From contig JAHNUO010000012.1 of NCBI GenBank assembly GCA_019787685.1, forward strand, positions 372,001-436,000: a stretch of 64,000 bases of DNA, in the 5' to 3' direction. This stretch comes from Chiua virens (taxonomy: Eukaryota; Basidiomycota; Agaricomycetes; Boletales; Boletaceae). The position numbers and the translations under genes are program-made. Numbering within the stretch: position 1 is the stretch's first letter; each line of letters opens with the position of its first letter. The notes under the pieces were generated by a model, which was given only the letters and a program-made list of their open reading frames with translations, ran no database searches and was not told the DNA's origin. This document shows, one piece after another, positions 2,950 to 53,100 of the stretch.

Positions 2950-3374
2950 GAATGCAGCTTGGTCGATGCCCCAACCCCAACGGTCGTGCACCATATTCTT
3001 TTTCAAGTTATTTATCATAATTCTTCCAGATGCATATTTGCTAATTGGACATCGTCACTCGATGGTCCCTCGCACTCATTTTAACCAAGTATCGTCATCA
3101 CTGGCATTGCATTTCACGTTTGTATTGTTAGTCGCATCACATCCTCAGTTCTTTTATTCAGACCAAGTGTACTATGTATTTAGATAGCAAGTGAACATAT
3201 TAGTCGCACTCAATGGAAAGTTCCGTAGTAATCTATCGTGCTTTGTCGTGAAAGTGGAGACTTCACACTGGTATTTGATAGTCTCAGATGCTATCGTAAT
3301 ATGAACGGTTAGGAAGTTACAGAAATGATGCTGAAAAACGATGAGTTACACTTACCATACTCGTCGAAAAAAGT
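2950..3374. other. Intergenic, AT-rich, no gene seen
   Basis: This is the convergent interval between zinc-finger gene A and the TPR-CHAT relic. It holds no recognisable coding segment and presumably contains the 3' ends of both. Confidence 0.5.
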
Positions 3375-6175
3375 TCAATGTCCCACATGAACGAAAGGGA
3401 ACCATTCCTCGAATCACCCCCTCGCAAATGCGCGATCGCGTGATGCAACGCCCGAGCAGCCTCTCGATAATCCGGCCGCCGCGCACCATCGCCACCCCGA
3501 CTGAGCAACTGTTCGTACACGTCCCTTGCCGCACTTGGCGCAAGCATGTCGCTGATCGACCATATCGTACCTACATACCCCGCAAACAATATTCCGGCTG
3601 CGATATGCACAGCCTCGTCCGACAGCGTTTCATCGCCCATCGCCGCCTGGCACACCGAGAGAAAGAGGAGCCCGCCGCGGGGTCGCGAGAGTGCGATCGT
3701 GTCAGACAGTTTCAAGCGGCGTCCGTCGCCGAGGCAGAGATCGCTTTGGGTGGGGTGCGTAACGTCTTCAAGTTGGATGCCGTGGCATGCGAAATGGACC
3801 CAGGTGGCGTCTTTCATCTGGGCGAGCACTTCCTTGATCGTGCCAGCGGATGATGTTATGAGGGGGGTTTGCGCGGGCGACGCGTTTTGAATGTGACAGT
3901 TTAATATGCTCCAATTCGACGGCGGCACCAAGAAGTGCGGGTTCACCGTCCAAGGATGGTTGACGGACCACGAGGAGGCGTAAATTACTGCTAGATTCAG
4001 CATTGGACGTGGGAGGGGATGCAAGAATACTTAGGGTCGGGATGTACGACGATATGACGAAATCGATTGTGTCCACGCTCTGAATATTGGATTCCGTAAA
4101 GACTGGCTGCGTGAATTGGAAGGAATACAAACGGTCCAGTTGGACACCTAAAAATGCGTGACAAGTCCCCAGGAGTCTGTTCGCGGATCAATGGAAATGG
4201 ACGGTCAGTACCTCAGCGATGGATAATATTTGGGATTCAGATGACGCGAGGACACGCACCGATAAATCTAGAGCAACCGCCGTGACTAATCGGACAGGTT
4301 GGGCGACATTGTTCCATAGTATGGACAATAAGGGCTCCCAGCTGCTCGGGCCCAGCTTCCGTCTTGCAGGTTTCCCCAACCTTTCATCGCAGCGTAGGTA
4401 GTGGAGGTAGCCATGTTTCTCAAGATCACCTTCAGGAGTGAGGTTGACAACATCCCTGTACGTCGAAATTACGTACTCGAGGTCACTGAGCTCTTCAAGG
4501 TGCTCAAAGCGTTATTTGAAACAACTGGCAAGGTTGTTTAGATACCCAGGTCGGAAGGGATGTCCTTCAGGAGTGAGGTGAAGAGCATCACTTAGCTTGG
4601 AAATCGCATGCTCGAGGTCGCCCAGTTCCCGGAAACGGTTGAAACGAATTCTGAAGCAGACGGAAAGTATATTTAAACACCGTCTGCCCGGGTCGCCCTC
4701 AGTGGAGAGGTCAGCAATGTCGTTGAACCTGAAGATCGCAGACTCGAGGTTCTTGAGCTCCCCGAAGGGTGGAAACGAGCACAGGAGCAGAGGTCGAGGT
4801 TGTTTAGGCACCAGGTATGTCGAGGTTCTCTTCAGGGCAAGGCAAATAGCGCCCATCGTCAATGAGATCGCTCGCTCGAATCTCGCAAGTCCCCAAGGCG
4901 TTCAAATAGATACCACAACACCGTTTCAAGATTCGCTAGCCTTCCGAGGTACCAGTCACGCCAAACTGGAATAGAGCAGACCGATGTCTCCAAAATTGCG
5001 ATTGTCCGTTGAAGATCAGCCAAATCTCTAGACTCCTCGAACCTACATAGCAATTTGACGCTCAGATCAAATAATGATTTTTCTCCTTCCAGTTCGGGAC
5101 GAAAGACCGCTCCACGGATGATTGTCCACCAGCTCGAAAAGAATCCGTGTTACGGTCTGCGTGCAGCTGAAGCGCGACTTGATTTTCGAGACTCTTTCCA
5201 GGGCTTAGCTTCAATGCCTCACAGAAGTGTTTCAGCCTTGGCTACGTCAACTGGATGCTGGAGTTCCTTGAATCGCCCCGGATGTACGATGACTTCTGGA
5301 TCAACGTTTGAGGTCGGTCTGAGTGGCCAGCATGACAAGCAACAAGGGTATCGAGATATAATGTCAAGGGAATGCTGTATGTCGTCGACCCAACAGAGGA
5401 TAAACTTTGCCATCGCTATGTTGGAAACGGCGACTGGACGGCACGGATCATTTAGCCAGCAAATATCCAGCGCACGTTCGAACTGTTCAATAGCACGCTC
5501 GAGATCCCGTTTTTTTCCTACGCTGTCAGAAACGTGACAAGGCGCTGTCGCCTTGACTTGTGTTCTGCCGCTGATTATGGATATCCACCATTAGCGGATG
5601 GTGCTTACACAAGTATATACCTACGCAATGTGGTTCGAGGACTTCCGACGTTGATAGATTGCCGCTCTTACGCTTCTGTTGCGCGACAGCCACCGAAAGT
5701 GAATCCTCGCCTGCTAGGTATAATGTGTACACTGTCGAAGAGTCAGAGCGTGTAACACACTTTCCAGGTTCTGTCTTGCTCACGAAGATCTTTCCGCTGT
5801 GGTCAGTAGCTACCTCAACGTAATCGACAACTTGCGTAGCCATTCCCCATCACCTGATATAGGCCGGATTTCAAAGATGCATAGATCTCTAGAGAAATGG
5901 TGGTAGACGGGTCAGACGGACCGTGAACTCCGTCAGAACTGGGGGTGTAACGGGAGGAGAGCGTCGTGAATCGGTTTGCTTTCGGTTCTTCACTCGCAGC
6001 CACTGTGCTGCACTGTTGCGTAAAAGCCAACGGGAGTTGGCGTAAGGCCAAGAACAACATCCACTTCTTGGCTGCCGAGAGTGACACTAGTTGTCTGGAT
6101 ACCTAGTGCATGTACCGCCATCAAGGACCGCTTGCAATGTCGAGCACGAAAAAGATTCCGTACTCGTTTCTTCAC
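3375..6175 (-). pseudogene. TPR-CHAT protein gene, multiply frame-broken
   Basis: The 3' half encodes a CHAT (caspase-like, HetF-associated with TPR) domain. It has a CPTGPFVFLPIHAAS start, the catalytic-His motif WVHFACHG, the catalytic-Cys motif LSVCQAAMGDE, the following LSDEAVHIAAGILFAGY block, and in another frame the usual terminal block FPFVHVGH before a stop at 3375. Upstream (about 4500-5500) are tetratricopeptide-like helices such as LESAIFRFNDIADLS, LEHAISKLSDALHL and LERAIEQFERAL. Around 5800-6150 is the C2-like N-terminal region (SLEIYASLKSG, GFYATVQHSG) often found in these fungal proteins. The pieces lie in order but in different frames; within the CHAT domain alone at least three shifts occur (about 4090, 3890 and 3415) with no splice sites. 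CHAT proteins are caspase-clan peptidases used in fungi in self/non-self and cell-death systems. Both catalytic motifs survive, so decay may be recent. Confidence 0.7.
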
Positions 6176-8865
6176 ACTCTCCCGGTTATACTGCGCCTGA
6201 GGAAGAAGGCACCACTGCCAGTGGATTCCTTTCTTCGGCCGTGCCTTCTAGGTCTGCTACCAGTGAATCAAAAAAGCTGGGGTTCGGTTGGATGGATCAG
6301 CCGGTTATGATGCAACTGTTACAGAGGCACGAAACCTACCCGAATGTTGAGTTCTAATTGCCGCTGTCGCTTTCTAACGCTTGAACCCAGCGTCACTTCG
6401 AAACGCTAGTAGTCGATGGAATGCTTTGAAATCGTGCATATCCATGTATGTTTCAAAACCCCTTCTAGTAATTTCAAAGTCGAATAAAATACCACGAGTC
6501 GGTCCAACGAGGCTGAGCGCTGAGCCGGGGAGTTCAACTTGAATTTCAACCACAACGTAACTTACCCTAGAAGAAGCGGGCTGTGTCGAACGCTTCAGCC
6601 GGCCCGGATGGCGTCAAAACTACTTTGAGTCGGAGTTTATCAGGCTGGTCCGCTGCAGCTGTCCACGGGGTCCTCACTGACTATTACATAGATCCCAGGT
6701 CCCAACTTCGGAACACGAGGCTGCGTGGGATACAATTCGTCATTCTCAAGTTTCCAACGAACTTCCCGAGAACTGTCAACTAGTTCTTGCCATACTCTGT
6801 CTGACCTCTATGATTATCAATGGGTTTCAATACGACACCCGGACATCCAGACAAAGCCAAAGCCCGGTACCCTCGGAGACAAGTGACGGGCTTTACATAT
6901 GACAAGTTTCAAAGCACGTTTGGCGATTGTATGTGGCTCTCCGGGCCGCTCTTCGAAGCGTTGATCTATCCAGGGAATCACTTGCGTTCACGCGACCCCA
7001 ACCGCTGTCTTTGCAAAACCAGCTTTGAGAGGAATGCTTTCGGACTTTCATCGCAGATAGGTGGTGTTCCGCGGATTTGATGCATCGGGGTCTAGCTGTC
7101 TGTTCTTGAAGTCTGTCTGTCTTTGGCCACGTTCTAACAGAGCTCGCCAGGCAGAGTGACACATAATTACAAGCTCCTTACACACGAGGTTGGAAATTCG
7201 CAATCGGTCCGAAATTTTTGGAAGAACATGCCAACGTCATAATATTGTTTAATGTCCATCTTTCATTGAGGACACTGATGAGTGATCTGTCCGATTAAAA
7301 GGCAGTGCTTCTACAAAGCAGGTTACAGTGGATGGGTCCGGGTACCTGAGCGATGTCAACTTATGCGCCGGTGTCTCTAGTTAGATGGCAAATACGTACG
7401 ACTCAAAGGATCGACGGCGTATTTGTGTCAAGGACAGTAAAAAATGCAAGGCACCGCTACGTCAACGAGGAAACGAGATTTTTGGGTTGGGAATGAGTGA
7501 ATTTACCGCGAGTGAGTTTCCAGGAAATACATATATCATCTCCCTAAGCACTCTGATTATAATGTTCAGGGAGAAATAAGTTATTATTACTCCCTGGAAG
7601 GAAGAAGGTTTTGTGCCTCAGAAAGAATGCGATGATTCACTTAGAGTGCACTGTCGTTTCTGAATGCTTATATGATCCATCTCAGACAAGATGGTACAGT
7701 CACTCCCATTCTCGTCGATCAAAAGCCAAGTTCCATGCTGTGACGTGCAATGACCAGTGACTAGCGTCATGCCCCGAAAATATTACCAGCCTTCCTACGA
7801 TCATGACGCGCCTCAGCCTGCCACAGCTGAATTAATATCAAAGTTCGCCTCAGGTTCGGATTGTTACTTCATCTCCAGCGGATCCAAACATGTAACAGCA
7901 GGCGCCTCAAAGCATTTTTGTTAAGATGTCGTAAGTAGATTGAAAGCTCTGACTGCCAGGTCGTGTGTCTACTGAATCATCAGGCTGTGACCTGCGTTTA
8001 CATCGCGAAGGACTTATCGTACACACATAATTTTGTGCAGTGCCGACTTCTTTGTGCTATGGACACCTTTCTGAAACGCTACGTGCACACGCGAGCGCAC
8101 GTGAGATAGTGGCGCTTCAAGGAGCGGGCTGTGGTACTCGCAACACGGTTCTATCCGCTTTTACTCTACGTAGCAGCGAGATCCGACCTGCATGTGTGCG
8201 GAACTCGTGGTGAAACGGACAAGTAGCCCCGGACAAGAAGACCCGACTCCACTTCCACTGGTAAAGTAGCTCTACACCCATCAGACACCCATGCATCTTG
8301 ACGCTAGCATGACTGCGGGATTTGAGATCATAATGCTTGTCCGACCATCATGACCACAGGACAGTTACACCGATCATGTTGGCAACGCGGGTGATTCATT
8401 GACACTCTGATTTGACAGGCTTCACGGATGTCTGTAAACCAACGACGAGAGTTTATTTCAAAATACATTACCAACACGATGTGAGTGGCATTACCAATCA
8501 ATGCACCCCCTTGATATAGCGATCAAGCGGCCCTTACGACAGTCAACAGTCGGTATATTGTGTATGTATAAGCCCTCACAGTTTCTACGAACTAAAACTA
8601 AACATGGATCCGGGATCGGCTTTGTTGACTCCTACAATTGGCAGTTGTCCCATACGGACAATTTGAGCCTCTTCATGGGATCGCAACTCCGATGTCAGCT
8701 CGGCCAGGTCCAGCCTGAGAGTAGTATCATCACTTCTAAAACACCCCTAGACACGACAGACCCAGGGATTACAACATCCGATATCAAATGAGGTCGGCCG
8801 ACATCTTCATTGAAAACCTCCCGCGCCCGTCAGTCTACCGGTCGGTCCCTTTACAGGACTCAGAA
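6176..8865. other. Gene-poor region, nothing recognised
   Basis: Only short open frames in several phases are present (for example 6820-7080 + and 6893-7162 -). None has family-like sequence or a coherent splice chain. The left end may hold the promoter of the TPR-CHAT gene. Confidence 0.45.
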
Positions 8866-8875
8866 GATAAAAGGG
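8866..8875 (+). promoter_or_regulatory. TATA-like box GATAAAAGGG of peptide precursor gene 1
   Basis: The 10-mer GATAAAAGGG lies about 80 bp before the ATG at 8955. The identical 10-mer occurs before the two related genes at 40146 and 59083, both on the minus strand. Confidence 0.6.
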
Positions 8876-8954
8876 AGCCAGTGGACAAGGAAGAGTCGCC
8901 CCCATTCCGCGAAGTATCAAGACACCCTCGAAATCCACCTACCTTCAGCCGATT

Positions 8955-9332
8955 ATGAAATCCTTCCTTATCCTTCTCGCTCTCACTGCGGGCGCTGTTT
9001 CCATTACGCTTCCTGTACGTTGGTCGTTCCTAATACCGTGATTATGTTGAGCTGACAATGATATCTTATCCCGTGTTGTGTCATTTTGGCCCGTGCACTC
9101 GGTTGGATGGTTTCTCTAATGCGCCCGTATCAATTCGAAGGTCGACTTATCAATGAAGCGGGAGGCTGAGCCCAGCTTTGAGAATAAAGATTGGAGGCGT
9201 GAGGCTGAACCAGAACCTGCCCTCCCTGTTCACGGTTGGAAGCGTAAGGCTGAACCCGAGCCCGCCTTCACTGGAGGACCCGAATCCGATTTGGCAGGCT
9301 TGCCCAGGTATGGCTGGAAGCGCGACAATTGA
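8955..9332 (+). CDS. Kex2-processed secreted peptide precursor (83 aa), gene 1
   Basis: Exon 1 (8955-9014) encodes 20 residues that are almost only a signal peptide (MKSFLILLALTAGAVSITLP). A 126-bp intron (9015-9140; GTACGT donor, CTAAT branch-like site, GAAG acceptor) follows in phase 0. Exon 2 (9141-9332) encodes 63 residues with three dibasic-bounded units. Dibasic sites are KR26-27, RR39-40, KR54-55 and KR80-81. Trp precedes the last three (KDW-RR, HGW-KR, YGW-KR). After the first three sites come EAEP, EAEPEP and KAEPEP, that is X-Ala/X-Pro dipeptide ladders like those removed from yeast alpha-factor by Ste13. Inferred products would be SFENKDW, ALPVHGW and AFTGGPESDLAGLPRYGW. There is no C-terminal CaaX box, so it is not a classical basidiomycete lipopeptide pheromone. 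The function (signal, pheromone-like peptide or RiPP substrate) is unknown. Confidence 0.75.
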
Positions 9333-11762
9333 AACGCGATAGGTCGCCTGTGACACCGTAAGATTGTCTGCTCAGTTTCCTTACTTTGTTTGCTTTTTAA
9401 CCTTGATCCTTTCAGGCGCCGACTCGGAATCGTTCAATTTACTGGCATCATTGAACTACTACTGCAGTGATGTCGTACCGCGCTGCCCAAGACCGCCACC
9501 TCGATATTACTCGTCTCGCCTTGACATTATCCTTGGTACTTTCTTCCTTATTTATCCTTTGACTACCAACCCTCGTTATGTATTACACGAGAACAAACAT
9601 CTGTTGTACGCACCGTTACGCCGTTACGCGACTTGGGTTAGCCCTTTATCGTGACTGTTTTAATTTGTTCTATTGCTCGGACTATCACCACGTGGCTCAG
9701 CGCTCAGCGCTCAGGACCCTTAGTAATAATTTATGTCGGTATCGACGTTGACCGTTAGACGAAAGTTATTCAAAATCAAGGGTCACACTGAACCACACTA
9801 CGCCACACTGCCGCCAGCTCAGTTGATGCAAAATGAAGTTGCCAAGGATACGATTCTCCGACAGAATCTCACGAACGGACAAACGTGCTCAGCTTTTTTG
9901 TTTTCTGGATTATAGATTCTTACTTGCAGGAACGAAGAGAATCGTTACTGTCACAGTAGCGGGATCCATGGTTGTTATGTATGGACCTTGAAGCTTGAAG
10001 GACTGAAGTTGGCAAGCGAGCGGATGAAACCTGTATTTAGCTGGGTGGAAGTAAATGGATACGATAGGATTACGACTAAGCTATTAAAGAGATTCGCTGT
10101 CATAGTAGTAAAACCGCCGACACTTTAGAAAGTCACATGAAATGGTGTCGGATAATGCGATAGATCCGAGCCTTGGCTTCCATGGGCCGAGATGCGAGAG
10201 CAGTACAGCTGGAAAGGTGGTCATCAGATCTCAACCGCACGGGTAACTTACTCTCCAGGTTGATTAACAAGGATCTGACGAGACTTGTCCGCCACTCTAG
10301 ATGAGCGGCGGGGGCTGTGAACACGTTCGAGAGGCTAAGTGTCGAATCTCACTCTGTCATAAACGGGCTGATGATGGATATTCTTTTTCGTGTGGAGGTT
10401 TGTTTATAAAGGCGATCAATAGGATGCATGGGAGTGATAATCCAGTAATGAAACTTAGTGGTACCAGTTATCCTGATTGAACTTCGACGGAATGTCCCAT
10501 GTGGGTTTTATTGTGTTTCCATCTACCAGGTAACCGCTTCTGAAGTGAAGTTGCCCAGGTGCACTGGACCAATTTGGGAACGGATCTATTTCCCACCACG
10601 TTGCAGCCACGCGACAGAGCTAAAATTGGTTTCTATTGTTTGCACTGGTTCAACTTTAACTGTAACGTTTCAACATCAAGCATCCGAATCCCTCGGAGTC
10701 TTGAAGCGTTGTTGAGCGCGACTTTAGAGGTATCACTACGACGTACGGTCTCAGTGACATCACTTTCCACCCGCTTCTCGAAGTAGCGTTCGACGCCTAT
10801 ATCGCAAAACACACGAGTCCGGTTGCACACAAACCGTGCCGCCCAGATCCACCATTCTTTGCTCTTTGAGTGTCACTGGCAAATGTAGCCATCGTTCTCA
10901 AAGGGAAATTTCCTTATTTTACACTCGACCGATCGAAATTCTAATATTCAGGGTTTGAGAAATTCCACGTGCCCTTCCCATAATCTGTGTGAATGGGCCG
11001 TCTCGCCCCGTGAGTCGATTCTTGCCATACTATCATTGGACCAGAAGTGCAAAACAGAACAACAATAAAGTAAGATATCACATAGGTCTTAACTAGCACG
11101 GGAGAATTTCAGTTTGGTGCTACAGAGTTTGCAGTCCCAGCGCGAGGATGTGGACATGCCCATGCCAGATTGATGTATGGAGATCATCGATCATCCAGCA
11201 GTGTCACATCATATATAGTCACCAGTACCTGTGATGCTCCGATTAGGAGACAGGAAAGTCGTGAGTTTCGTCCACACTGCCGAGTAGACCATTCCTCATC
11301 TTTATCATTTTTAAGCAGAAATTCCTTCTGCACAGTCTGCAGGTTATTCGAATATGGACATGGTCGGAATTTGCTTCGTTTGCACAGCGATATACTCCGT
11401 CATTGTATGAACTGCAGTGAGTACGCAGGGTAGGATGACCGAATTCAGAAGGAACACCAGATGTGATCTCTTCGATCGGTGGCTTTGTTCCGGGGACCTC
11501 GAGCCCTGAGTGAATATGCCAAGAGCGTGGATACTTGGTTCAAACCATTCAGCTTGAGGATACCCCCCAGTTTCTAGCATCACAACTATTGTTCGTGTCA
11601 CGTGGAAGTTTCTGTCTGTCAAGGTGAAAGAGCAACTTGTATGTGCTTTGACCCTCGTCCACAGTGTCCACACCGCATGGCTTGATGTGTCAAAGCGGCC
11701 GGATCGCTTTTTGACCTTGACAAAGAGGAGGTTCCGTCATGTCCACACTTGAACCGTCTACG
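9333..11762. other. Gene-poor region; start probably 3' UTR of peptide gene 1
   Basis: Shortly after the stop, a GTAAG...CTTTCAG pair at 9358-9417 could be a 3'-UTR intron. The rest (9.7-11.7 kb) holds only short, unrelated open frames with no recognisable family. Confidence 0.4.
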
Positions 11763-11769
11763 TATAAAA
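11763..11769 (+). promoter_or_regulatory. TATA box of zinc-finger gene B
   Basis: TATAAAA lies 110 bp upstream of the ATG at 11880, in a pyrimidine-rich leader. Confidence 0.45.
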
Positions 11770-11879
11770 TCTGGTACGTTTTCTGTCCACGAAGGCTTCA
11801 CTCTCTTGCGCATTCATTCTCCTGCTCACCCTTACAATATCATAACTTCACGCAAACATTTACATCGACTAGAACCATC

Positions 11880-12890
11880 ATGACCGAGGATGCTAATGTA
11901 ATTTCTTCGCTTGCTGTTGCGGCCATATAATTAATCGAGTCGTTCCAGATGTACACTTGCCGTGTAGATGGCTGTGGTCAGTCGTTCAGGCAAGAACACG
12001 AGCTCAAGAAACACAACGTATTTCACGATAATCCCGACAAGTATGTTGGTAGCATGAACTGTGCCGAAATCCAAGTTGACGACGATTAACAGATTACATT
12101 TCTGTCAGCACCCTGGGTGCGATTTCTACACCTTATATAAAAGGAATCTCGAGGGACATATGGGAAAACAGTGAGTCTTCCTCTACATGATAGTTCTACC
12201 GCATAACGCGATGGTTTACTTTCGTTTCCTGTCAGCACTGGCGAGAAGAGGTTCCCGTGCCCTCAGGAGGATTGCACATACAGAACGAATGATGCTTCCC
12301 TTTTAATAAAACATAGGCGGAGCTATCACGAGTACAAACCTAGGCGCGCATCCCCTACTACGACCATTGTACATCGTCCCTACCATCCGTCTGCAATTCC
12401 TGCCACCGATGACAACAAGGCTACCCCTGCTCTCAGTATGCCAAGAAGACCGGGAGGGGATCCATATCACAACTCATACTCGGCGCGTACAGCGCAGAAG
12501 TCGAGGGATTCCGGTGTCCCCGTCAATGCCATTGCCTCGCCGTCGTCCTCCACATCGATCTCGCAGGAAGGTGCCACGGTGCCGGGACACGCGCAAATTG
12601 CGGCGCAGAAGTCGAGGGATTCTGGTTTTCCCGTCAATGCCATTGCCTCACCGTCGTTCTCCACACCAATCTCGCCAGAAGGTGTCACGGTCCCGGAGCA
12701 CGCGCAAAATGCGGCGCAATGGACGAACTTTTATTTTAACCACGGGGATGCAATGTCTATTGCTCCTAGTTCATGGGGCATACCTGCAGACATGTACTCA
12801 GAATATCCAGATGGGGGTAGTTGGAATGACACCATCTCAAATGCGTTCGCCAACGACTACATGAACTGGTTACAGGCCCGCGCCCACTGA
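11880..12890 (+). CDS. C2H2 zinc-finger protein, paralog B (280 aa)
   Basis: Four exons: 11880-11897, 11949-12040, 12093-12170 and 12236-12890, exactly 281 codons. The short first exon (MTEDAN) precedes finger 1, MYTCRVDGCGQSFRQEHELK with H-X3-H. Finger 2 is FCQHPGCDFYTLYKRNLEGH, followed by TGEKRFPCP and finger 3 (C-X4-C-X12-H-X4-H, complete here). Intron phases and positions match paralogs A and C, so the three share an ancestor. The tail differs: it carries a direct repeat of 37 residues (12492-12713) and ends in SWNDTISNAFANDYMNWLQ. A putative nuclear DNA-binding protein; no target can be inferred. An open frame just after the stop (12929-13129) is also Ser/Thr-rich and could be an alternative 3' end, but no splice chain joins it convincingly. 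Confidence 0.8.
12492..12713 (+). repeat. Tandem 111-bp duplication inside zinc-finger gene B
   Basis: Two adjacent in-frame units (12492-12602 and 12603-12713) each encode 37 residues. Each begins AQKSRDSG and contains VNAIASPS, with about 10 amino-acid differences between copies. Confidence 0.85.
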
Positions 12891-46126: not shown

Positions 46127-48587
46127 CTGGGTACGGGGGTTATGGTCAGGTGGTGCGGGCCGAACTTTCCTGGAACGATGGCTCACAGTGAGTGTCATCC
46201 TTTATGCGTTAGCATTTCTAACCCAATCCCACATAGATTCTCCTGTGCATTTGTAGTTTCACCGTGCAGTCGCCCTTCTCCACACAGAACATAGCTATGT
46301 TCCCATTGTAATGTTATTCTCAGTCATATCAATAGAGAGGATTACAAGCACTAATATAGTGTGAAATCCTATCGTGGATGTTCTTCGTGCATCTTTGATT
46401 CCGCAATCCTGGTTTCTGCGGCCAGGCGTTAAATAGCACTGAAACCTTGATTTTTCTTCAGTTTACGGTCATGAACGCGACTACTGCTGGTGTAAGGCCG
46501 CGTGTCAGCTGGTGCTCGTGTCCTGCTAAGTCCAGCGGTACACAGTAACCAACTCGCTGACCCACTGGGCTGATGGGCTGTAAGTTGTTCCCGAAACACT
46601 GACACATGACTAGATTCCCTCGGTAACTTGCGATCAGCCGTGCCGTAGCGATTGAATTGCTTTTATTCTCAGTGACAAATTTGTCGGGAATAAGGTGCGT
46701 CTGGGCTTTGTTTTCCTCCAATCTTCAAACCTTGTTCTAGAATATTACTGTCGCCGAGCACACTTTTCGAACTCTAATGCCGTCCACGCGGCTCTACGTG
46801 TCACACGCATTATCTGAAGTATTATTTGAAGTATTACATAGCTCGAACAGGTCAGAAGGACCGCGTCAACGCCCTCTGTCAATCGCCTGTCTCACGATCT
46901 AGCCAGCGCGCAAAAGCAATGATTCAATTGTTTCTACCCGAGAAGCCGCTTGATTATATTCACTGTGACCCTTGTATTTCTTTCTTTACCGCTGACCAAC
47001 CAAGGGACGACACAGGTGTTTGGTCTCTTGGTTCTAAAAGACACGCGCGGTTGAAACGTGCTCCAGCCGATGTAATGGTCTCGGCCCCCTTTTTTGCCCA
47101 CACCTCGTCGCGCTTCCGACTTGTCACCATCTGTTAAACCGCAGAGTAATCTCCCAGTACAACGCTCAACGAACATGTATACTCCCGTTTGGTGTTCGAG
47201 GTAGCTATCTCATACACATGTTTCGCACACAATTTTTGACCTTGTGTTGCATGGATTCGACTGTTTGAAAAAGACAGACCACAGCCGATCAATATACTAG
47301 CACTGTGGCCAATTTTCTTGCCCTGGAGTCTTGATCGTGGCGTTGCTATTTGGTGATCAGCAGTCACTAGTCATCCACCAGCCACCACGGCTCGAGCTGT
47401 CCAATGTAGTTGTCCTGTCTCTTCGGATCATCAGAGAAGAACGTATGCACTATCGCTATTCCGTGGGGATTGTTTTGCTGACCCGTTACGTGACACAGCA
47501 AACCCATAGGAGTCCACCGTGTTTCTCATTCGAGTTTACCGCAGGGAGGATAAAGGACACGAAAGCTTCTATGCGTGGATGGTATATTATTATTATTTTA
47601 TGAATATCTTTGTGAGGAGCAAGCTGACACAGCAGTACAGATCGGATCATGTTTCATCGCCTTGCTGGCGTCGCCCTGTCAGAGCTGGAAACAGTGGAGA
47701 AATGTGTAGTTGTCAAGTTGTGACTCCCCTACGCGCGTGCGTGACGGCGCACGGTGTGTCCAAGCCCCATCTTTCGTGTCTCGTTTCTCGAAACCGACCG
47801 ACTTCGAACAGAGAGGCTCCGTCAAAAGCGGGCGCGTAGGGTCTGGACCACAGGAAAACAAAGAGTCCGATTCCCTCACCCGAGTATGATCGGAGTATCT
47901 CCATTTACCCCCGCCGTGTGCCGAGGTGTACGCCGGCTGTGCTACCCGCGGCCTTCTGGTCGCCTCATGTCAGCTTGGGACCCTTGTAACGTCCACCCGC
48001 GGCACACCCACTTAGATTCCGAAACACGGTTCACACATGGTCATAGATTACCCACACGCACAACCGCGATGTTTTCATTTTCTGGGCGTGATGAGCTACG
48101 ACATGGTCTGGATTCTGGAAGCATTTCATTCGTGGGGAATCGGCCATGGATGATACATGTGCATGTATGCTGCGCGTCATCCATGGAGGAATGCCACCGA
48201 AGGTCCACCCTCAACCCTGATTGTCGCTTGTAGTGAAACCTGATCCATGGCGGGATCGTCGACCTTGTTAGGAATTTTTCAGCTCGACGCCATGATCGAA
48301 CAAGAAAAATACAATAACTCCGTGATGCACGCAGCATGCACGTATGTCGGATGACGGCAGGACTATTATTTGACAGTGGTAAAATACAATTGCGGGGACA
48401 CATGGGCAAAGCAGTAGCGATGAAGATGCGAGGACAACACGATGATAGCAGTAACCACATCAAGGAGAACGATAGGGGAAAAAGGAAAGGAAGACCAAAA
48501 ACAGAATGCGCAGTTCAATTCAAGAGTATTGGTTGTTCGGTTGCCAAAAATCTATACGACGACGAAAATATATTGTTTCTAGATGAG
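46127..48587. other. Gene-poor region, nothing recognised
   Basis: Several open frames of 60-159 codons occur (for example 47754-48233 +), but they overlap in many phases, lack family resemblance and lack coherent splice chains. Confidence 0.4.
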
Positions 48588-50141
48588 TTATCTATCCCTT
48601 GACCAATAACGCAACTGCGAAGGGTCACTCCCTGAACCACCGGGGGGTGGTGGGCTGGCCGATTGTTGCGCTTGAGAGTAAGAGGACCCAGACTGACCGG
48701 AGGGAAGGGCAAGAGGAACAGCCCTTGCCAGCGGTTGATATGGGCCAACGGCAGAAGGGGAGCCGGAACCATACGCTTGTTGCAGGGATGAGTATGATCG
48801 CCCTGAAACGGGGTTCCCTTGGATAGGCGTGATCGCACTGTAAGGCTGGGGCGGGACAGAAATAGCCTGAACGGAAGACGACGGGAAACCCTCCTGGGGA
48901 GTATTATGTGGCGGATAAAATGGTGCAGTGAGCGTGGGGAAACTGTAGCCAGCAGTAGATGCGCCCGAGGAGCTAGATGAAGGCACCACCTCTGATCCGC
49001 TCGTGTTGGTGGTCCAGGCATGCGGAGACACAGCCTGGGGATACCCACGGTGTCCGTCATCTGCACTGAGGTCTTGGCTACTCTGCTGCCACGGCTGTAT
49101 GGGGATCCGGCTTTGATCATCCCTTGCGCTAGACCACACCTCGGCAGTAGAACCAGATTCGGCGAAATAGGATGATGGTTGTGCGTGATGTTGTTGTTGA
49201 GCTGACAAGTACGGATGGTAATAATTTGCAGCATGTTCTGATCCGCGGGAGGCGGACGAGATAGACGATACCATGCCAGTGTCGGGTGTGGTACGACCAG
49301 GGCGAGATGCATAGGAAACTCGCGTGTCACCAAGGGGACGATAGGATGGATCCGGGGGCTGGTAACTGGATGACCGTGACTGCGTGACCGAGTACGTCCC
49401 ACTGGCAGGGTCAGCAGGTAAGCTCGCATAACGAACGTCCTGCTCAGCGAAGCGGGGATCTTCTGTGTCTGCCACGTCGACAGGAGATACGTCACTGTAG
49501 TCTGCATTTCCAGAAAAGTCGTCCACGAGGTCTGAGGTAGATGCGTGGTCTGCGGAGAGACTAGGAGAAGGATCAGGCTTGCGACGTTTCCGGCTGTTGT
49601 TCGGTCGCCTCTTGTACACATAGTCTGGGTACTTCTGATTGAAATTATCTTTCAGGATTTTGGCTTGATCGAGGTAGAACTGTTTGTCGGACTGGAAGAT
49701 CACGGAATCAGGAGTCAGATGACGGAAGACGGACGTATACGAGTGGGAGCCCTGACCAAACTCATATTGTTCCATTCTCGACTGAGAATTTTGCTAACCT
49801 CGCCTGTGCGCATCGATTGGTTTTCTGCAGCGACTTGTGGGCGACGTCGGCGAGCAAATATCATGAAAGCATTCATCGGCCGTTTCGGAGTGCCATCCGC
49901 GTTTAGCGTCTGCAACGTTAATGCAGCGTTTGAATCATCTGCGAGAAAGTGAAGGAATGTTGACATGGCGAAAAAGCAATGAGTGCGTACCGTCGCCAGG
50001 TTCCGTTTTGTGTGACTCAGGGTACTCCAGGTAACCGGCGTCATCATCCGAGCCAGAAGGGGACCCTCGGCCAGGCAGTAGCCCGGAATGTTGCGCCACA
50101 GCATGATGTTGCCCTTGAAGGTCTGGGTAGTAGCCTTGCAT
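48588..50141 (-). CDS. HMG-box transcription factor (478 aa)
   Basis: Three exons on the minus strand: 50141-49991, 49938-49757 and 49691-48588, exactly 479 codons, introns 52 and 65 bp. After an acidic N-terminus (MQGYYPDLQGQHHAV) comes an HMG box of the SOX/MATA type at residues about 70-140: PKRPMNAFMIFARRRRPQV, SKILSREWNNMSLSDKQFYL, KDNFNQKYPDYVYKRR. A basic patch NNSRKRRK follows and probably serves nuclear import. The remaining 300 residues are Ser/Pro/Gln/Tyr-rich, like a transactivation region. Such factors in basidiomycetes control mating, fruiting and development; the exact ortholog is not identified. The intron inside the box sits before SDKQFY. Confidence 0.85.
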
Positions 50142-53100
50142 GTCAACAACGGAAGTGGAAACTTGGCTGGGCCACTCGAAGAGAGCAGACGAAATATGTC
50201 AAAGCTGGAGAAAGGAGGAATGCGATTCACTTCTGTGAAGGTCAGTGATCGGCAGGGAATTGAGTCCAGTCGGATAACAAACTGGACGGGTTGGGGCTGA
50301 ACCTGAAACAGAGCAATAAGCCAGAGTTTTCTAGGCCGGGATTGGTGGCATACGGTAGCAAACAAAAGCATGGCAAGATAGACGAAAAACAACTAGCGAA
50401 TTTAGTTTGATCGTACATGGAGAGTGAACCTTGGTCCCTAGGATTCGCGGAGTCGTGGCTTGCGGCATTGACACCGCTTGGTCCATGATTGAAACCGAGC
50501 GCTCACAGGAACAACTTCCTCACCCATTGGAATCACACTCGCATCTCGGCCTCGAGGAATCTCCAAACACAGGCCATTCGTTGTTCAGGTCCAATCTTGG
50601 ATCGATTCCTGCTTCCTACTTACGCCAGCTGATCTGGAGTTCCCTTTTGGGTTAGATAGGTCGTGCAGGAGGCTCTTTTTCTTTTTCAGGCGCTCAAGAC
50701 CCCCGAAAACGCACGACGCATGTTTCCGAGACTTGGCCAAGGAAGGCTATACTCCCGGGCCAAATTCAACTCGTGTGTTTTGCGAGGCTACACTTGTGTT
50801 CCCGGAAACCGGCGGTCGAGCTGCTACAAAGAAAATTTTAATCTTGTAAAATTGTGCACTCTACAGTTGATAATATGTTTACCGCACCACGGCATTTGTC
50901 TCTGTCCCCGTCGCGTAGGGACCCGCGGCGGAGATTGTTGAATGAACGTGTCTACGCTAGTGCGCAGTTCCTGTCAAAGGACATTTCATCTGACTCCTGA
51001 GTGATTCCGCCAAACCACTGCCAGGACCCTGACATATCCTCGTCCATACAGGCGCAAATGTCCTAGATCTTGTCAGTTCGGCCCCGTAGACATGCGTCCA
51101 GTCGGAAAGTACCTAGCGGACATTGCATGAGCTCCGACCCGGAGAGTGCCGACTGAGTCACTCCGTCGACCTTCTGCCTTGCCCAAGGGACGTGTCCTGC
51201 ATCTAATCATGATCAGAAAAGAAAAAAGGAAAAGGAAAGAAATCTACCTCAGGGTGCACCCTAGAATTCATAAAGTTTCGCTCGCAGGGGTTATTATGTA
51301 TCGCTTTGCCGCCGTGTCAGCTGCCTCAGGCTCCTTCTGCTTCCGATCACAGTCACATCGCAAAAGGCTTATTGGCTAGCAGAATAACGTTTCCAAGAAG
51401 CTCGTGTAAAATCGTATGAACGGCATGGAGGCAACGTTACAGAATATGCTGTGGAGCTCTTCAGCGCCACTGCATCCATCCCACTTCTTTTCCCGTTCTC
51501 TAACTTTAGAACTTTGTGTCATGTGGTAGTCGACTCCCCCGCACACTCAAGCCAGCAGATCTCCAGGATGAAAGGCACTAACCCGCGGGTAATTTGAAAT
51601 ACCCTAACTCTTCTCGTACCTCAGCGTCCCGCCTTGCTCGTTCCCAGCGGACGAGGCGAGTATGGTGCTTGATTTGGTTGACTTACTGTGTCACAGTCCC
51701 GCCCACAAGTTCGGACTGTGATCCGGTTGTATTATGTATGTTTGCAGCCGGTGTTACGACCCACCTTAACGCACGAGGTCAAGATGATCTCCGTCTCGGA
51801 ACTTTGTTCTAATCATTAATAGATGCCATCATGCGCGTATCACAAGAACTTCATTTAAGTGACAAGGATATACGTGTCTGCCAGTGGCTTCACCGATGAG
51901 GTTGACGAGGAACCGGGCTCGGATATCCATATCGCGGTATACGAGGGACCCGAGGAAGCCAGATTTCGCAACCCGCCGTGGCTCAGCATCAAGCTATGGA
52001 AGATGCGGACACGTCGAGTGTGCCTTGCATCAAGACTGGGTTCCATTGCTTCATTATTACAATGAAAACCTGCCCTCGGGGAAACGCGGCCATCATTCTC
52101 GCTGTCAAGGGCGACGTAAATGAAGAAACGTGGAAAATGCTCAGTGTCGCACTTTGAGGAACAGATCCGATGACATCCGGGGCTGGACATCCGCGGTGAC
52201 TTGGTTGCTTCTCTCAAGGACTTGAGTGATCTTTCTGAGAAGATGGTACATCCTAACTATGACTCCTTGCTAACGTAACGTAGTCCATTTCACGAAGCAG
52301 CTGCTGGGTGAGAGATTTTACCTCAATTAGTCAAAGATCACTAGACCCTGTCTCCCGACCACCCAATGCCACACAGGGTGGTTGAAACCATACCGAGCAG
52401 TCATGCAGTCTCTCCGACTTCCATGGGTTGTGTGAATCGATCAATGTGTCGTCGCACGCTTGCAGTGTTGGCAAGCCTTGAAGGAAAGTCATGTACCTAG
52501 CAAGAATCGGTCAGGAACCCGCGATCCACAGGAGACGCAAGCCCTTCTCCCTGCCCCTGCGAAATTCCAGGGTCCTCCAGGGTTTCGGAGGCCAACTACA
52601 CTACTAGTACGTTATCGGTCCCCGCGCCGAAACCACGAAATAACCCTCTTCTGGGCGCAAGAGTAGATCACCTGCCTTGTGAATTCCCTGTGTGAACACG
52701 GACAACAGTCCGAGCTGCAGACGCGAGGCCACAGCAGGGTTTCCATTACATCTCGTGGGTTAGAGTCAGAGGCAAAGCAGGTGAATTTGGGGATAAATCG
52801 TTGGGGTTTGCCATTGTAAGGCAAGAGAAGATCTCAACTTGATCCTTTCTGAGTTGAATTATGCGGCAGCTGATGAAACAACGATTTGGGATCCATCAGT
52901 TGGCATGGTCGTTTGCTTATCACCAGGCTGGGGCTAGGCCTAATGGAGTGCACCTGAAGTGTGACCGCCAAGACGTGTGTGGACCTGTGGATTCAGGAAA
53001 AGCGGGGAGAAGACGTAACAGTTACCTTCATGCTGCGGCAGCCAGTGATAATGCTCAAGAGCGACTAAAAATGTGGTCAAAAGGTTCGGGCTATGCTAGT

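Follow-up and report, generated by a model that had tools for sequence, protein, structure and literature searches.

Kex2-processed repeat proteins (KEPs) with dipeptide ladders of the Ste13 type are already described from mushrooms. According to Le Marquer 2019 (PMC6339444), some KEPs of Basidiomycota carry a very clear STE13 signature and have the structure that is canonical for alpha pheromone precursors. For the six KEPs that Le Marquer gives as Basidiomycota examples, Umemura 2020 counts 76 homologous KEPs, 17 of them with nearby DUF3328 genes. Vogt 2022 (PMC9769878) describes STE13 motifs together with C-terminal Trp in many basidiomycete KEPs. Mass spectrometry there detected trimmed Trp-ended peptides (e.g. 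SGVAADW) in fruiting bodies of Pleurotus, and Trp-ended trimmed peptides were also obtained from a Coprinopsis KEP expressed in Pichia. The same source reports six kep knockouts of Coprinopsis cinerea without a phenotype.

Here we describe a KEP-like gene from Chiua virens. The window, i.e. the whole stretch of 64,000 nucleotides that was analysed, corresponds to positions 372001-436000 of contig C12 (C12:372001-436000; other contigs are denoted likewise) in a genome of 48.3 Mb and 136 contigs. Among described precursors, KEP 490115 of Coprinopsis cinerea (QMRPPSW, QYKAPSW; Vogt 2022) has a signal peptide, for which the window gene has a putative counterpart, and likewise combines Kex2 sites of the RR type with Ste13 motifs and seven-residue cores that end in Trp; unlike those of the window gene, its cores begin with Gln and are alike, as far as its published description goes. 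KEP 1091723 of Pleurotus ostreatus and KEP 1439342 of P. eryngii (SGVAADW) share the Ste13 motifs after dibasic sites and cores ending in DW, as core 1 does here, but repeat near-identical cores, again by published description. Ascomycete alpha-factor precursors follow the same processing logic of Kex2, Kex1 and Ste13, but their peptides are different, the gene described here has no Pfam match and a mating role would be unexpected in Basidiomycota. The dikaritins (ustiloxin type, UstYa/DUF3328) also derive from KEP-like precursors, and UstYa genes lie beside the paralogue of the window gene; the window gene itself has no UstYa match in the 72 kb examined around it. MiSSP8 of Laccaria bicolor, compared by its description in Umemura 2020, is another Kex2-cleaved repetitive secreted precursor.

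Gene model and layout of the precursor

The sequence was read as a two-exon gene on the forward strand (window 8955-9332) encoding the 83-aa product MKSFLILLALTAGAVSITLPVDLSMKREAEPSFENKDWRREAEPEPALPVHGWKRKAEPEPAFTGGPESDLAGLPRYGWKRDN, with a 126-bp GT-AG intron between the exons (Table 1). The intron is inferred from its GT-AG ends, from the reading frame and from the conservation of both ends in the paralogue. The N-terminus MKSFLILLALTAGAVS, with a basic start and a hydrophobic core, resembles a signal peptide as judged by eye. With that judgement for the signal peptide, every part of the layout given in a preliminary description, a signal peptide followed by three units bounded by KR or RR, was borne out.

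Table 1 Features of the window gene, and UstYa matches beside the paralogue locus
Feature	Position	Strand	Remarks
Probable core promoter and 5' leader	8866..8954	+	TATA-like GATAAAAGG at start; paralogue homology begins here (blastn block from 8866); promoter role putative
Exon 1	8955..9014	+	signal-peptide-like MKSFLILLALTAGAVSITLP; 53/60 aligned bases identical in paralogue
Intron	9015..9140	+	126 bp, GTACGT...TTCGAAG, phase 0; in-frame stop if unspliced
Exon 2	9141..9332	+	propeptide end, 4 dibasic sites, 3 core units; stop 9330-9332; encodes VDLSMKREAEPSFENKDWRREAEPEPALPVHGWKRKAEPEPAFTGGPESDLAGLPRYGWKRDN
Kex2 site 1 (KR)	9156..9161	+	followed by EAEP ladder 9162-9173
Predicted core 1 SFENKDW	9174..9194	+	RR site 9195-9200; EAEPEP ladder 9201-9218; cuts predicted by Kex2/Ste13 rules
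Predicted core 2 ALPVHGW	9219..9239	+	KR site 9240-9245; KAEPEP ladder 9246-9263; cuts predicted by Kex2/Ste13 rules
Predicted core 3 AFTGGPESDLAGLPRYGW	9264..9317	+	KR site 9318-9323; C-terminal DN 9324-9329; predicted
UstYa matches beside paralogue	C22:479485-479715 and 479808-479969	+	one gene
	C22:480609-480752	-
	C25:44607-44747	-

The four dibasic sites (KR, RR, KR, KR) bound three units, and Trp stands directly before three of the four. The translation confirmed this arrangement as previously claimed, including the EAEP, EAEPEP and KAEPEP ladders after three of the sites. The ladders vary in length (two, three and three dipeptides), and each stops before a pair, SF, AL or AF, that could not be trimmed by Ste13 rules. 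The three cores differ from one another, while ladders and Trp ends recur; at the DNA level, exon 2 holds a 19-nt repeat in three copies and a 38-nt repeat in two.

Such a layout is rare by chance. When the residues of the exon-2 product were shuffled 200,000 times, a single shuffle contained three or more [KR]R(X[A/P])2 motifs, none contained three or more W[KR]R, and none combined the two. Reading the window in six frames gives 979 stop-to-stop ORFs that reach 40 aa; one has the first motif three or more times and one the second, and the precursor ORF has both.

The precursor would enter the secretory pathway by its signal peptide and be cleaved by Kex2 after KR and RR; Kex1 would then trim the basic residues, and a dipeptidyl aminopeptidase of the Ste13 type would strip the EA, EP and KA dipeptides. 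Release of SFENKDW, ALPVHGW and AFTGGPESDLAGLPRYGW as linear secreted peptides would result, and the three products named in the preliminary description do follow from the confirmed anatomy by Kex2/Kex1/Ste13 rules. Their calculated [M+H]+ values are 925.405, 779.420 and 1893.913, and an oxidative cross-link would lower each by 2.016. Core 3 could be cut once more at the single Arg that precedes YGW; cuts after single Arg are reported in KEPs by Vogt 2022.

A profile search of the genome yielded one partial match to the Kex2-type P-domain (56 of 86 positions) on C1, and four DPPIV_N matches in one gene of the Ste13/DPP-IV type on C8. One of the latter crosses a TAG, possibly an intron, and the frames before it contain a possible membrane segment (judged by eye).

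Of the 198 window ORFs of at least 90 aa, 26 were compared with Pfam; those near the peptide gene matched GAT, CHAT and sub-threshold zinc fingers, none of which suggests a peptide-pathway gene. A partial CHAT-domain gene lies upstream of the peptide gene (window 3320-4030, minus strand; Pfam 1.1e-13), and an HMG-box gene fragment was seen at window 49718-50392 (minus strand; Pfam 1.4e-12). Rfam gave no match in window 7000-12000. Bacterial-type promoters and terminators were not found, in a search that is uninformative here.

A paralogue and its interrupted allele

Searching the genome with the protein sequence returned three matches, namely both exons of the window gene and C25:47525-47641. 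The latter belongs to a paralogue at C25:47344-47647, with exons at 47344-47406 and 47540-47647, separated by a 133-bp intron whose GTACGT and CGAAG ends are those of the window gene; its translation is MKSLLVLLALTAGAVSVALQP / VDLPLKREAEPGFAAGGWKREDDPGFATSGWKRDD, followed by a stop. Leader, splice ends, frame, KR sites and Trp ends are kept between the two genes, and the cores differ. The window gene has three units; the paralogue has two cores, GFAAGGW and GFATSGW, which are alike. Under Ste13 rules its second ladder, EDDP, would not be removed completely.

The homology between window gene and paralogue starts at 8866 and runs in blocks to about 10638 (blastn). Identity over aligned bases is 53/60 in exon 1, 102/123 in the intron, 80/108 in exon 2 and 276/411 in the 3' region to 9800. 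Conservation of the intron thus exceeds that of exon 2 and comes close to that of exon 1, and hence identity alone is no proof of coding constraint. The exon indels measure 3, 45 and 39 bp, all three multiples of three, versus 13 of 34 indels outside the exons (upstream, intron and 3'). Over 43 aligned codons, picked by hand in a way that favours conserved parts, the 17 differences fall 7, 0 and 10 at codon positions 1, 2 and 3; the same codons, with the same bias, give dN 0.087 and dS 0.362 (NG86). Indel and codon-position patterns point to coding constraint, on the basis of one paralogue in one genome. Further downstream in the window, a 65-bp stretch (9853-9917) that the 3' region of the paralogue lacks has matches of 91-98% on C63, C53, C14 and C1 and has the look of a small repeat insertion.

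C22 holds an allelic version of the C25 paralogue locus, in five blocks that are 94.9-99.1% identical. There, an insertion of about 16,468 bp (C22:460338-476805) splits exon 2 immediately ahead of the first core's Trp codon. The ends of this insertion, TATCACG and CGTGATG, resemble short inverted repeats, and a 2-bp duplication may be present. For the window locus, no allele-like second copy appeared among the 20 best matches listed in a 5-kb DNA search of the genome.

Pattern, protein and DNA searches of the genome confirmed no family member beyond the window gene, the paralogue and the interrupted allele, which leaves the absence of others unproven. One pattern gave 62 genome matches, 30 of which were obtained as loci, and its reversed-pattern control gave 25; a second gave 21 matches outside the window gene, with 10 for its control. 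Most matches of these two patterns are therefore chance. One of the 21, on C8, showed no KEP layout in the 500 bases examined. The five matches of a third pattern outside the window gene were counted only. The six-frame scan of the loci (other than L046-L051) required at least two [KR]R(X[A/P])2 motifs per frame, a threshold that leaves out the paralogue itself.

UstYa genes and the nature of the product

The window gene is very likely a KEP of the Ste13-signature, Trp-ended type, which would yield linear secreted peptides. Its filing as a KEP carries a reservation, since KEP screens ask for repeated cores and its three cores differ. The peptides most probably serve in signalling outside the cell or in interactions with other organisms, rather than in mating.

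Another explanation is a dikaritin-like RiPP precursor, cut by Kex2 and cross-linked at core Trp, Tyr or Phe by UstYa (DUF3328) oxidases encoded elsewhere. The UstYa family has at least 18 matches in the genome, four of which adjoin the paralogue locus (Table 1). Beside the paralogue allele, C22:479473-481057 holds two UstYa-type (DUF3328) genes on opposite strands, the first about 2.3 kb from the allele, itself interrupted there. Without its introns (479626-479673 and 479756-479808), this first gene reads ...YHHIHCL / DMLRKYL...HPHLGHCVEILRQKLMC... and contains two HXXHC motifs (HHIHC, HLGHC), described as a mark of RiPP-related DUF3328 proteins (PMC12048977); two open pieces of it match Pfam UstYa with 97.2 bits (1.6e-27). 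By our own arithmetic, a random point would lie within 3 kb of any of the 18 UstYa places with a chance of about 0.2%. A UstYa-type gene near the paralogue makes a cross-linked RiPP product possible for the family, in line with the DUF3328 genes near KEPs in Umemura 2020. Against this stands the fact that the precursor beside the UstYa pair on C22 is the interrupted one, whereas next to the intact one on C25 the homology with C22 breaks off within the first UstYa gene (at C25:44379) and the second had no match in the 39 kb of C25:33001-72000. Around the window gene, no UstYa match below E 0.1 was found in 72 kb (C12:364001-436000), nor did the genome search place one on C12 among the matches listed. 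In Vogt 2022, moreover, the KEP peptides detected from Agaricomycetes are described as linear and minimally modified. A dikaritin-like product of the window gene is unlikely.

The preliminary description had proposed "a different peptide-signalling or RiPP-like route". This was right in kind and is not new, as Ste13-signature basidiomycete KEPs described by Le Marquer 2019, Umemura 2020 and Vogt 2022 had put the seemingly unexpected route in print; its RiPP-like option gains indirect support from the UstYa genes beside the paralogue on C22. What is new here are the two sequences, window gene and paralogue, and the place of the paralogue about 2.3 kb from a UstYa-type gene on one haplotype.

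In function, the product of the window gene may resemble MiSSP8 of Laccaria bicolor and act as a secreted effector or symbiosis peptide, which would not conflict with the linear secreted peptides favoured above. Core 1 with its following site reads DWRR, and a DWRR motif occurs in MiSSP8. As described in Umemura 2020, MiSSP8 is made from a Kex2-cleaved repetitive precursor and is needed for mycorrhization. The likeness is one of description and of a short motif, and we regard this role as rather unlikely.

A bolder and decidedly unlikely proposal is that the family joins dipeptide trimming of the alpha-factor type with oxidation of the UstYa type. Its products would be RiPPs with cross-linked Trp and a trimmed N-terminus, the window gene product would be modified in trans by the UstYa enzymes of the paralogue locus, and the haplotypes would supply different working parts (the intact precursor on C25, the UstYa genes on C22).

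An alpha-type mating pheromone acting on an unrecognised receptor would fit the processing signals, which follow the logic of ascomycete alpha-factor precursors. Yet the peptide precursor has no Pfam family at E 0.1, including the alpha-type pheromone, and STE3 has 23 matches in the genome (on C13, C2 and C7) while STE2 has none, although the STE2 control also matched nowhere. With that limit on the STE2 result, the receptor matches agree with a basidiomycete host. Basidiomycota use a-type pheromones only, according to Le Marquer 2019, and we consider this reading very improbable. Several of the STE3-type receptor matches lie within about 20 kb (C13:673075-693064), an arrangement that resembles a mating-type receptor locus. 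We claim no canonical CaaX pheromone close to these receptor genes; four 3.4-kb loci at STE3 genes gave one weak candidate, versus 1.08 per simple shuffle.

A degenerate or chance reading frame, which would agree with divergent cores and with an intron and flanks that are also fairly conserved between the paralogues, is scarcely credible given that both motif criteria jointly appear in none of the shuffles, that all exon indels are multiples of three versus 13 of 34 elsewhere, and that none of the 17 differences in the 43 picked codons falls at a second position.

The window gene and its paralogue thus offer a compact case: a small family with quickly changing cores in a constant processing frame, and with UstYa genes beside one copy. 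The question posed by this family is whether the alpha-factor-like peptides of mushrooms are linear signals or oxidised RiPPs.
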